Assembly (NCBI GenBank): GCA_021769965.1
Contig: JAETRU010000006.1
Coordinates: forward strand, 1-64,000
DNA from: Eubacterium sp.
GTDB lineage: Bacteria; Bacillota; Clostridia; Peptostreptococcales; Anaerovoracaceae
Reading direction: 5' to 3'
Length of the DNA stretch: 64,000 bases
The position numbers were made by a program, and so were the translations under genes. Under the pieces are notes generated by a model, which was not told the origin of the DNA, made no database searches, and saw nothing but the letters and a program-made list of their open reading frames with translations. Positions 36,152 to 44,950 of this stretch are shown piece after piece (the first letter of the stretch is position 1; each line of letters begins with the position of its first letter).

Positions 36152-36504
36152 TTAGGTCAAAATGCTTTTTCGAGGGGTCAAAGACCTAATTCTCGTGGCT
36201 CCGGCAGCGAAATGTTAGGTCAAAATGCCTTCTCGAGATGCCAAAAACCCAATTCTTGTGGCTCCGGCAGCGAAATGTTAGGTCAAAATCCCCTTTCGAG
36301 GGGTCAAAAACCTAATTCTCGTGGCTCCGGCAGCGAAATGTTAGGTCAAAATGCCTTCTCGAGGTGCCAAAAACCTAATTCTCGTGGCTCCGGCAGCGAA
36401 ATGTCAGGTCAAAATCCCCTTTCGAGGTGCCAAAAACTTAATTTCTATGGCTCCGGCAGCGAAATGTTAGGTCAAAACACCCTTTCAAAGGGTCAAAAAC
36501 TTAA
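36152..36504 (-). repeat. Helically phased palindrome array 3 (six 38-bp TTAGGT-N26-ACCTAA modules, exact 63-bp period)
   Basis: Module starts 36152, 36215, 36278, 36341, 36404, 36467; constant 25-bp linker containing GGCTCCGGCAGCGAAATG. Confidence 0.95.
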
Positions 36505-37205
36505 TTCCCATGGCTCCCCTGCCTCTGCAAGATCCACCCCAAACCGGCCATCAATATCTCCGCCGCCAAATAGCAGCCAAAGCTCCACGGGCACATTCCG
36601 GAAAATCGATCCACTGCGTATAAGACGCCGAAAGCAGCCGCAATCATCAATACCATAGACAAAACTGTCAGAATGCTGCCGCACCGCCGTTTTTCAAATG
36701 CCTCTCCCCATCTCATCTGCAATGCCAGAATACCGCTGCTGACAAACCAGCCCAAAATGAAGAACCATACCGGTAACAGCCCCATAGCCAGCGCTGCCTC
36801 ACCTTGCGACAGTCCCCTTGTCATAAGCCAAAGCGTCATATGCTGTATAACGACCAGATCATAATACGGCTCATATCTGCCCAGGATTGCCGCAAACATT
36901 ACAATTTCCGTCAAAATCACTGATGTCCAAAGTCCGCAGACGATGATACGGCTCAGCATCATCTTAGGTAAGGCAACCGGCAGAGTCTGCATCAGAATAC
37001 TGTCGCCGCCGGAAACATTCTGACCCAGCAGCTCATGAAACCCCCTGCACAGCAGAACTGCTGCAAGCAGTAAGACTGCGGCAATTCCAATGCCGGACAG
37101 CAGCCCCGCGATCAGACCGCCGAAGCAGATGATTCCTACAAGAAACAGAGATGCCATGATCTCTCCTTTGATCAGATCCGTCTGTGCGAAGATCAGCTTC
37201 ATCAT
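36501..37205 (-). CDS. ABC-2-type permease-like membrane protein (module 4)
   Basis: LLGQNVSGGDSILMQTLPVALPKMMLSRII aligns with the other three permeases; 6-TM pattern. Confidence 0.75.
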   Translation of the reverse strand: MMKLIFAQTDLIKGEIMASLFLVGIICFGGLIAGLLSGIGIAAVLLLAAVLLCRGFHELLGQNVSGGDSILMQTLPVALPKMMLSRIIVCGLWTSVILTEIVMFAAILGRYEPYYDLVVIQHMTLWLMTRGLSQGEAALAMGLLPVWFFILGWFVSSGILALQMRWGEAFEKRRCGSILTVLSMVLMIAAAFGVLYAVDRFSGMCPWSFGCYLAAEILMAGLGWILQRQGSHGN

Positions 37206-37209
37206 AGGA

Positions 37210-37845
37210 TCACACCCCTTTCAGCTTTCCCTCGCCCAGCCGGGCGATGCCCCATGTCCAGCCCGTGCCTCCGCTGTACACGAACAGGACTTTTTGGTCT
37301 CTGCAGATATAGATGCTGCCGGGAAACTCCGAAATCACTCTCCGGCCGCGCCGGTCCACCACGCATGCTGAATTGCTGCTGAGAGGCAGCGCCGCCAGAC
37401 CGTCCTGAAATGCTAATGGTACGCCGCCCCCGGGAACTTCCATAGCCGGAAAATCAGTCTTGATCGTAAATACCGTCTTTCCTGCATCATCAAAACAGTA
37501 CCATGTGCTGGAAGGCAGATCATAGCCGAGAGCCATTCCTTCCTGATAACCCCATATATCTCCATATATTCCAAACCGGTCCTTCTCATCATCGTCCATA
37601 TAACTGACAGGCAGCTGATGATCGTACAGATATTCCCAAAAATCTTCATTCCTGCTGCAGAATAACTCCTTCTCCCACCGTATCCCCTGCAGTTCCCTCA
37701 GCCCGGCGCCGTCGTCAGCCGCGGCTCCTGCGATGCCGCAGCCTTTGATCCCCAGCCAGAGGCCGCTTCCTGCGAGAAATACTGCCAGGCAGCAGACGAC
37801 CAGACCCCGTCTCCGTCTTTGCTCTCTCCGTTTCTCCACTCCCAA
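37210..37845 (-). CDS. Truncated WG-repeat-like membrane-anchored protein (module 4)
   Basis: N-terminal TM; RWEKELFCSRNEDFWEYLYD; shorter than the other three family members. Confidence 0.6.
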   Translation of the reverse strand: MGVEKRREQRRRRGLVVCCLAVFLAGSGLWLGIKGCGIAGAAADDGAGLRELQGIRWEKELFCSRNEDFWEYLYDHQLPVSYMDDDEKDRFGIYGDIWGYQEGMALGYDLPSSTWYCFDDAGKTVFTIKTDFPAMEVPGGGVPLAFQDGLAALPLSSNSACVVDRRGRRVISEFPGSIYICRDQKVLFVYSGGTGWTWGIARLGEGKLKGV

Positions 37846-37851
37846 AACCTC

Positions 37852-42539: not shown

Positions 42540-43824
42540 CTACTTTCAATATCCCCTCTTTGCTGTCTAAGTACACCACCGCCGCGTCCTCACCGCTGAA
42601 GGACGCGCTGCTGAAGACAGGATCGATGACCCAGCTTCCGTTATCGTCTATAATACCGAACTTCTTTCCGTCATAGCATACGGCCATGCCGTCTCTGTAC
42701 CAGCATTCTGCCAGATCTGCCGGCAGTTCACCACCGGCTTCATCCGGTCCGCAGATATCCGCGTCCAGAGGCTCTGCCAGCTTTTTCTCAAACAGCGTCC
42801 GGCCTGTCTGGTCGATGACGCGTACTTTCTCTTTTTCCCAAAGGAAAGCCTTCCCCTCTGTAAACCTGCTGCCGTAAAGGATATGCGGCGTCCTGATCTT
42901 CACCTGGCCGTCACGGTCAATATATCCGCTGATGATCTCGCCGTTTTCTTTCCATTTCGCATAGCACAGACCTTCGCTGAATCTGTCCATCCAGCTGAAA
43001 AGCGGTACTTCTTCTATGGGATCAAAGCGTTCATCCAGCATCCGAAGTCTGTCACTATTCCTTCTAACATAGCGTTCTTCCCCTAACGCTGCCAAATTAA
43101 ACCACGATACTTCTCCTGACCATTCTCTGATGATCTCTTTCCTTTCCGCGTCAAACAGCCGCCGGCTGCTGCCCACACGGGACTCCAGGAGAAAATACTT
43201 TCCTGTAACATGGCTGACGCTGGTATACAGATCCGGCCATTTGTCCAGTTTTTCCGTGTCATACAGAACCTGCCCTGATTTATCGACAGGAGCCTGCACA
43301 TCCACGCCGCTGTGCAGATCCGAAGGCTTCTCTACTATCGCGCAGCCACCAGAAAAAGCTGTGGCGGAATCGTAACGGGCTTTGATGACCACGTTGCCGT
43401 CAAGGTCTATGTAGCCCAGCTTCCCGCTCTTGCAATCCTGATACATCAGCAGTCCGTCTCCTTCACTGCCGGTATCCATATTAGAACTGATCCAGCCCAG
43501 AGACATGTCAAAGATGTCCATGGATTCAGGTATCTGCAAGGTGACTTTCCCGTTCCGTTCCATGATGATCTCCTTATTTCCCTTAAAAGCGCCGTACACT
43601 TCTCTGTCCGCGCCTCTGACAGCATGGATCCCGCTGTAGTCTTCGCTCAAAGGCAGGTACCACGCTTCCTTGGCCAGCTGATCCATCAGCTCCGCCTTTT
43701 TCTGCGCCCGCGCGTCTGCGTCCAGTGCCGACTGATAAGTCATGATCCCGGCTCCGATGCTGCACATTACCGCTGCCAGAGCCAGCAGTACATATGAGAT
43801 CCGCTTCAACCGATCCACCTCCAT
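42523..43824 (-). CDS. Membrane-anchored WG-repeat protein (module 1)
   Basis: GKLGYIDLDGNVVIKARYDSATAFSGGCAIVEK; FGIIDDNGSWVIDPVFSSASF. Confidence 0.85.
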   Translation of the reverse strand: MEVDRLKRISYVLLALAAVMCSIGAGIMTYQSALDADARAQKKAELMDQLAKEAWYLPLSEDYSGIHAVRGADREVYGAFKGNKEIIMERNGKVTLQIPESMDIFDMSLGWISSNMDTGSEGDGLLMYQDCKSGKLGYIDLDGNVVIKARYDSATAFSGGCAIVEKPSDLHSGVDVQAPVDKSGQVLYDTEKLDKWPDLYTSVSHVTGKYFLLESRVGSSRRLFDAERKEIIREWSGEVSWFNLAALGEERYVRRNSDRLRMLDERFDPIEEVPLFSWMDRFSEGLCYAKWKENGEIISGYIDRDGQVKIRTPHILYGSRFTEGKAFLWEKEKVRVIDQTGRTLFEKKLAEPLDADICGPDEAGGELPADLAECWYRDGMAVCYDGKKFGIIDDNGSWVIDPVFSSASFSGEDAAVVYLDSKEGILKVGGRIE

Positions 43825-43829
43825 CCATA

Positions 43830-44552
43830 CTAAAATACGGCTTTCATTGCTTCTTCCAGATTGCTTCCGTACCGGGACCTTATATCATCGCAGGAACCCT
43901 GCAGCGCTACCCGGCCTTCCCGCAGAACCACCACAGAATCAAACAGCCGCTCGATCTCTGAGATCAGATGGGTCGCCACCAGGATCGTCCCTTTAGAATC
44001 AAAATTTTCCAGTATGACATCCAGAACGCTGTCTCTTGCCTTGACATCCACGCCGCCCAGCGGTTCGTCCAGAAGATACAGCCTGGCACGTCTGCTCATG
44101 GCGAAGCTGATCTGAACTTTATCGATCATGCCCTTTGACATCTCTTTAAAAGGCGTTGTCATACCGATCTCAAAGCCCTCCATCAGCCGCGCGAACCGGT
44201 CAGCTTCGAAATCCTCAAAAAACTCGGCGTAGATCTCTTTGATCTCTTCTGCTGTACGTTTCAGTGAGAAAGCCGGCCGGTCCGGCAGATACGATACCTC
44301 CGCCTTACTCTTTGCCCCCGGTCTTTCCCCGTCGATCAAAACAGTTCCGTCATAGGCGGTGTACAGCCCCGCCAGGATCTTGATCAAAGTCGTTTTCCCG
44401 CTGCCGTTGGCGCCAAGCAGTCCGATGATCCGTCCCTCAGGGATCTCCAGATCGACGTTCTTCAGAGCCTGTACGCCTCCAAAGGCCTTGCAGAGGCCGC
44501 AGATCTTTACAATTGGCGGATTTTCCACCAGTTTCAGTTTCCGTTCTTCCAT
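43830..44552 (-). CDS. ABC transporter ATP-binding protein (YtrB-like)
   Basis: IIGLLGANGSGKTTLIKILAGL; MSKGMIDKVQISFAMSRRARLYLLDEPLGGVD. Confidence 0.94.
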   Translation of the reverse strand: MEERKLKLVENPPIVKICGLCKAFGGVQALKNVDLEIPEGRIIGLLGANGSGKTTLIKILAGLYTAYDGTVLIDGERPGAKSKAEVSYLPDRPAFSLKRTAEEIKEIYAEFFEDFEADRFARLMEGFEIGMTTPFKEMSKGMIDKVQISFAMSRRARLYLLDEPLGGVDVKARDSVLDVILENFDSKGTILVATHLISEIERLFDSVVVLREGRVALQGSCDDIRSRYGSNLEEAMKAVF

Positions 44553-44563
44553 CGTGCATCCCC

Positions 44564-44950
44564 CTATACAGCTGTATCTGCGTCAGCGTCCTCTACTTCA
44601 GCCTCTCGAAAAAAATCCTCGATCTGTTCCCTCGTAAATCCCATGTTCCGCATTTTCTGCAGAAACTCTCTGACGATCTCCTCTGCCGCTTCTCTGCGGG
44701 CAGCGTCTATGATCCCCGTATCCTTTGTAACAAAGCGTCCTGTCGTTCTTTCTGATATCAGCAGCCCTTCCCGTTCCAGTTCTGACAAAGCTCGCTGCAT
44801 AGTATTGGGATTGACCCCGAAGTCTTCGGCCAGCTCCCGCACCGTAGCGATCTTTTCCCCTGCCGCCAGCTCGCCGGATACGATAGCCGCCCTGATCTTA
44901 TCCATGATCTGCATATAAATCGGAAGGTTTTCATTTAACAGTGTGTCCAT
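44564..44950 (-). CDS. GntR-family regulator (YtrA-like)
   Basis: LPIYMQIMDKIRAAIVSGELAAGEKIATVRELAEDFGVNPNTMQRALSELEREGLL. Confidence 0.94.
   Translation of the reverse strand: MDTLLNENLPIYMQIMDKIRAAIVSGELAAGEKIATVRELAEDFGVNPNTMQRALSELEREGLLISERTTGRFVTKDTGIIDAARREAAEEIVREFLQKMRNMGFTREQIEDFFREAEVEDADADTAV

Follow-up and report, generated by a model that had tools for sequence, protein, structure and literature searches.

The window analysed here, 64,000 nucleotides of contig JAETRU010000006.1 from a Eubacterium sp. genome that is a member of the Emergencia group, carries on its minus strand (44950-36501) an operon in which genes for a GntR regulator and one ATP-binding cassette (ABC) ATPase are followed by four successive pairs of a WG-repeat protein and a permease, behind one promoter with a palindromic operator. 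We lean towards the reading that it encodes a YtrA/GntR-controlled exporter of the ABC-2 type in which one ATPase is common to several alternative membrane cassettes. A further step, which we put forward as a possibility and regard as rather doubtful, is that the WG-permease pairs are portable and interchangeable units plugging into this common ATPase, giving one motor and several exporters whose specificity would be set by each extracellular propeller. The core is a known GntR-ABC-2 exporter; in the papers searched we found no precedent for its WG propeller partner, for the multiplication of that partner or for a detached cassette that shares the operator, and our searches of the open literature gave no functional paper tying WG-repeat proteins to transporters. 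All ten genes that a sequence-only reading of this DNA had placed in this order are intact open reading frames, and the tight coupling that it claimed is borne out by WG-to-permease junctions of -17, -4, -4 and +4 nucleotides in modules 1 to 4. The features are as follows; "orphan" denotes a WG-permease pair that lies outside the operon in Emergencia timonensis, and G007 is Emergencia sp. SUG182.

45038-45043, minus strand: -35 hexamer TTGACA of the operon promoter; with the -10 hexamer, 10 of 12 matches and a 17-nucleotide spacer, in the same layout as in homologous operons.
45015-45020, minus strand: -10 hexamer TATTGT, inside the operator; the GntR gene follows the promoter TTGACA-17-TATTGT.
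44992-45023, minus strand: palindromic operator TATTATTGTATTA-N6-TAATACAATAATA, the presumed GntR site, with 13-bp perfect arms.
44564-44950, minus strand: GntR regulator, YtrA-like, 128 amino acids; Pfam GntR at 8.9e-17, nearest NCBIfam model PmtR, below its cut-off.
43830-44552, minus strand: the single ABC ATPase, 240 amino acids; Pfam ABC_tran at 2.2e-24, nearest NCBIfam model PmtA, below its cut-off.
42523-43824, minus strand: WG1, membrane-anchored WG propeller of module 1; WG_beta_rep at 6.7e-19; the module groups with the E. timonensis orphan.
41778-42539, minus strand: permease P1 of module 1 (profile family A1/A6); nearest relative the E. timonensis orphan permease.
40509-41729, minus strand: WG2 of module 2; WG_beta_rep at 4e-19, with an AlphaFold2 model of a helix (residues 2-40) and a beta-propeller, and BamB-like propellers as Foldseek matches.
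39763-40512, minus strand: permease P2 of module 2; AlphaFold2 model with an all-helical ABC-2-like fold and weak Foldseek E-values.
38550-39776, minus strand: WG3 of module 3; WG_beta_rep at 5.3e-7, orthologue of the sole WG protein in the G007 operon.
37852-38553, minus strand: permease P3 of module 3; orthologue of the sole permease of the G007 operon, at 41% identity.
37210-37839, minus strand: WG4 of module 4, internally deleted; GTG start with AGGAGG 8 nucleotides upstream, as read from the sequence.
36501-37205, minus strand: permease P4 of module 4; its usual C-terminal tail is missing (alignment A1) at the edge of a repeat array.

The evidence for a shared ATPase comes mainly from the genus, sampled here as 13 genomes with that of the window included. 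WG-permease modules are present in four of them: the window genome has four, G007 and G008 have one each in operons that run GntR-ATPase-WG-permease, and E. timonensis SN18 (G005) has three behind its GntR and ATPase genes, the second with a shortened WG protein of 274 amino acids, plus the orphan pair (L036) about 0.68 Mb from the operon. The neighbours of this orphan pair are genes that we take, by recognition of their sequences, to be dxs, an rRNA-methylase gene, an aminotransferase gene, mutS and mutL; the flanks contain no ATPase gene for about 6.5 kb in either direction, and the only E. timonensis match to the profile of the clade ATPase (E <= 1e-60) is the ATPase of the operon. The operator palindrome is found without mismatch both at this operon and 27 nucleotides upstream of the orphan WG gene, and allowing three mismatches reveals no third site in this genome. 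An ATPase-less permease cassette in the same presumed regulon, the mark of a multi-cassette system, is thus present in a relative, and the proposal that one ATPase serves several pairs is not only supported but strengthened by it. Most simply, the orphan module would be expressed along with the operon, whose ATPase it would use in trans; as the permeases share a loop described below, the ATPase gene is single and one cassette stands apart from it, we infer that one ATPase docks on all of the permeases.

The operator itself follows the ATPase closely. Its general form, ATTATTGTATTA-N6-TAATACAATAAT, lies upstream of every GntR gene of the clade and overlaps the -10 hexamer, and at up to three mismatches the operator is present in all seven genus genomes with the clade ATPase (one copy in each of six, two in E. 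timonensis) and in none of the six without it, although four of these six are only 73-85% complete and the absence of both ATPase and operator is softer there. The window operator is the only match in its own genome. Because the reversed pattern, used as a control, matched the window's genome once by chance at the same threshold, the weight of the argument sits on the perfect matches, of which about 1e-7 would be expected by chance in 4.7 Mb. We regard the palindrome as the presumed GntR site, and repression at the -10 hexamer is likely, given the position of the operator and the precedents of ClnR, PmtR and YtrA, which are YtrA-subfamily regulators of ABC operons (PMC6117091, PMC5080381, PMC12772383). 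The window regulator has its GntR domain at residues 12-74 of 128, that is, an N-terminal helix-turn-helix with a very short C-terminal region, the size by which YtrA-subfamily GntR regulators are recognized (PMC5080381). Promoter-like and terminator-like sites inside the operon are about as frequent as in shuffled sequence. The same genome also holds a second GntR-ATPase-permease operon (G000:C29, locus L171, 5234-7249), which has no WG gene and carries a related but different palindrome, GATATTGTCTTA-N6-TAAGACAATATC.

The presumed motor and its membrane partners have the character of an ABC-2 exporter. The ATPase carries GANGSGKTT (Walker A), MSKGM (signature) and LLDEPLGGVD (Walker B/D-loop) in the alignment and is 72-78% identical to the ATPases of three related operons. 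Each permease has five or six hydrophobic segments, and all fall below Pfam gathering cut-offs, P2 giving a weak match to ABC2_membrane_4 (0.0012). The AlphaFold2 model of P2 has a predicted local distance difference test score (pLDDT) of 76, and its best PDB matches are PmtCD, NosY (of NosDFY) and CcmB, with Foldseek probabilities of 0.80-0.95; the E-values are weak (0.27-0.84), and these three, all of them ABC-2 exporter folds, are the only ones among the first ten matches to exceed a template modelling score of 0.4. A motif-complete ATPase beside a permease of about six transmembrane segments, the arrangement that defines an ABC-2 exporter of the ClnRAB/Pmt/Ytr type, is therefore what the window contains, with the ABC-2 fold taken from one model of weak E-value; on the weak Pfam match and this model of P2, the permeases are predicted to belong to the ABC-2 type. 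The motif that the sequence-only reading quoted from all four permeases corresponds to a cytoplasmic loop near transmembrane helices 2 and 3 and is probably the loop on which the ATPase docks.

That motif had also been taken as a sign of serial duplication, an interpretation that is not supported. It is family-wide and recurs in permeases that have no WG partner (GDEGYLMMTLP in L039-L041), so that its presence alone is no proof of serial duplication, and the modules group across species. In a tree from the concatenated alignment, the sole G007 module is the sister of window module 3 (100/100), and another split sets module 1 and the E. timonensis orphan apart from the rest (about 96/80); these are the only groupings we use, since the other nodes of this tree and most of the single-gene trees are unresolved. 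Because each groups with a module of another species, modules 1 and 3 at least are older than the species split, and the array did not arise as a recent series of local duplications. In the window genome the operon includes the module 1 lineage; in E. timonensis that lineage stands outside the operon.

The same copy-number series bears on whether the four permeases form fixed heterodimers (for example P1-P2 and P3-P4), building one or two transporters in which the WG proteins would be structural components. A membrane domain in two parts would be natural here, as in three further genus members (G001, G010 and G012; L168, L169 and L170) this GntR, operator and ATPase occur without a WG gene and beside one permease of double length (about 500 amino acids, 11-13 hydrophobic segments), and YtrC and YtrD are paired membrane proteins of one ABC system (PMC8060467). 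However, the G007 and G008 operons have a single permease, that of E. timonensis has three modules, and the fourth E. timonensis permease, the orphan, is encoded alone; we consider fixed heterodimers unlikely.

WG1, WG2 and WG3 score 68, 68.8 and 30 bits, above the gathering cut-off of WG_beta_rep (PF14903; 25.6 bits), and the WG2 model (pLDDT 83, predicted template modelling score 0.78) starts with one long helix (2-40) and continues as a beta-propeller, for which the Foldseek matches in the PDB are propellers, among them BamB, AztD and designed ones. The basic residues that precede the helix point to an N-terminus on the inner side of the membrane and a propeller on the outer side. The window subfamily thus resembles other WG_beta_rep proteins in family score and modelled fold, and differs in being anchored by a transmembrane segment, in having a stalk that bears an LxWxVPL-like motif and in its pairing with a permease; most of the other WG proteins examined have neither the anchored stalk nor the partner. 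All ten linked WG proteins, the two shortened ones among them, have a Trp after the stalk, mostly within an LxWxVPL-like context, and the strict stalk pattern is matched by 9 of the 10 linked proteins versus 5 of the 32 unlinked ones that have an N-terminal transmembrane segment. Searches of PDB sequences with the WG and permease profiles gave no match.

The pairing itself is strict within the clade: in 10 of 10 cases across the four genomes the WG gene is directly upstream of its permease, at a spacing of -17 to +20 nucleotides, and the distance matrices of the two proteins co-vary over the ten pairs (r 0.66, permutation p 0.0005), as they do for the window and E. timonensis only (r 0.50, permutation p 0.029). 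The claim that WG proteins are obligate partners of these permeases stands in that sense, but not beyond it: other WG proteins in the order adjoin no gene recognized as this ATPase or permease, and the three WG-less genus members run the same GntR and ATPase without one. Two candidate extensions failed likewise. The five permease matches outside the genus, in the wider class, all lie in GntR-ATPase-permease operons without a WG gene, and the WG neighbourhoods examined in the order outside the genus gave no neighbour recognized by the ATPase or permease profiles.

This distribution could mean that the WG propeller is an independent envelope sensor or shield that shares its regulation and transcript with the permease but is no part of the transporter. 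WG proteins in general are unlinked to such ABC genes, and the two closest unlinked ones (G235 and G381, another genus of the family), with the same anchor, stalk and LxWxVPL motif, adjoin two membrane proteins, with bPH_2 domains shown for G235, and no ABC permease. Against this are the one-to-one pairing in fixed order, the co-variation of the pairs and the occurrence of WG and permease as one unit at the separate E. timonensis site, and we judge an independent propeller to be improbable. Because its closest unlinked members adjoin two membrane proteins, the anchor-stalk WG subfamily appears to be a partner of membrane proteins for which an ABC-2 permease is one choice. The loci at which a WG protein of this subfamily adjoins two membrane proteins, a second kind of membrane partner for it, are L172 (3895-7061; bPH_2, YdbS/YdbT-like) and L209 (3377-6549). 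A 615-residue protein of the same bacterial family (L210, 6127-7974), in which a six-transmembrane-segment domain of no Pfam family is fused to seven WG repeats, was considered as a natural WG-permease fusion and rejected, its membrane part being unrelated to the window permeases (profile comparison, probability 0.1).

Several points weigh against one ATPase driving alternative WG-permease cassettes. The Foldseek E-values of the permease model are weak; one orthologous pair, module 3 and its G007 counterpart, supplies part of the co-variation; E. timonensis has many other ABC ATPases, one of which might power the orphan pair; and the WG protein is dispensable for the clade ATPase, as the three WG-less operons with the same GntR and operator demonstrate. 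The nearest permeases outside the genus also lie in plain GntR-ATPase-permease or ATPase-permease operons without WG genes (L039-L041, L204-L208). Because these wider relatives and the three WG-less genus members are plain operons of this kind, the WG protein is an acquired accessory rather than an essential part, one that joined a ClnRAB-like core within or near this genus.

We propose that each cassette of the shared-ATPase exporter would consist of an ABC-2 permease with five or six transmembrane segments and its own WG beta-propeller, held outside the membrane on one N-terminal helix and a short stalk. A GntR dimer would repress the operon by blocking RNA polymerase at the -10 hexamer until an inducer releases it; whichever permease dimer happened to be present would then receive ATPase dimers at its conserved cytoplasmic loop (GxSLxGxxAxxxMTLPxSxxxxxGK). 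The propeller of each cassette would pack beside its own permease, capturing or gating substrate, as is thought for NosD with NosY; by analogy with NosD and YtrF, the role of the propeller may be substrate capture, gating or protection. The least certain step is the nature of trigger and cargo, for which our best guess, by analogy with ClnRAB, PmtRABCD and YtrABCDEF, is envelope-active amphipathic peptides or cell-wall lipid intermediates. The sensing or resistance role that had been suggested for the system is conceivable on the same analogies; induction of Ytr by antibiotics need not mean resistance (PMC12772383).

Four known systems frame this proposal. ClnRAB of Clostridioides difficile, induced by LL-37, shares the three-gene core and its order, a small autoregulating YtrA-subfamily GntR and an ABC permease (PMC6117091), but has one permease and no WG protein, whereas the window has four permeases each with a WG propeller, and a relative has a detached cassette under the same operator. 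YtrABCDEF of Bacillus subtilis is likewise an ABC operon under GntR control, and its products include several membrane proteins and YtrF, which acts as an extracytoplasmic partner; unlike the window system, it has two ATPases, and YtrF has a MacB-like domain and no WG propeller (PMC8060467). In NosDFY, an extracytoplasmic beta-repeat protein (NosD) accompanies an ABC-2 permease (NosY, among the top matches of P2) and an ATPase (NosF), while the window system has an anchored WG propeller in several paralogous copies and belongs to a Firmicute. NosD is a soluble periplasmic beta-helix. PmtR-PmtABCD, the phenol-soluble modulin exporter of Staphylococcus aureus, provides the nearest NCBIfam models for both GntR and ATPase and, in PmtCD, the best structural match of P2; however, the window GntR reaches 61 of 200 bits (PmtR) and the ATPase 139 of 350 bits (PmtA), far below the NCBIfam equivalog cut-offs, and Pmt has two ATPases and no known WG partner. 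The window system may nonetheless work like Pmt. WG-repeat proteins are widespread and almost uncharacterized, and their strict, co-varying pairing with ABC-2 permeases offers a testable role. If one ATPase does serve several cassettes, this would be a compact case of exporter specificity evolving via cassette swaps with motor and operator fixed, and the series of one, one, three plus one, and four copies, together with WG-less sister operons in one genus, makes the idea directly testable.

The surroundings of the operon raise the question of a role in iron or metal homeostasis. After the operon, at 31045-36030, the window carries Feo-type genes, a DtxR-like regulator gene and a cation-exchanger-like gene; a DtxR-like gene and feo genes also lie 3' of the operon in E. 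timonensis, and a DtxR-like gene does so in G008. However, the G007 operon has no DtxR-like or feo neighbour and stands beside a valS-like gene, the WG-less versions lie elsewhere, the WG alignment contains no conserved His or Cys, and the regulator is YtrA-like rather than of a metal type; a metal role is thus highly improbable. A scan of the whole window with Rfam gave nothing but one tRNA, and models of defence systems gave generic ATPase matches only. A different family of the order has an uninterrupted row of seven anchored WG-repeat genes (452-632 amino acids; L178, 3210-15557), near which no ABC genes were recognized.

The last module looks eroded. The sequence-only reading had called the last WG protein truncated, and WG4 indeed has an internal deletion: it matches the subfamily profile at positions 2-61 and 254-391, and positions 62-253 (about 190) are missing in frame, so that anchor, stalk and last blades are retained and most of the propeller is lost. 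WG4 has no Pfam WG match, and its assignment comes from the subfamily profile, which itself includes WG4. The usual C-terminal tail of P4 is absent where a 63-bp tandem repeat begins, an array of 5.8 copies (36152-36517) that overlaps the last P4 codons. Of the four genomes compared, the window's alone has this repeat, with diverged copies on its contigs C21, C62 and C73; G005, G007 and G008 have none.

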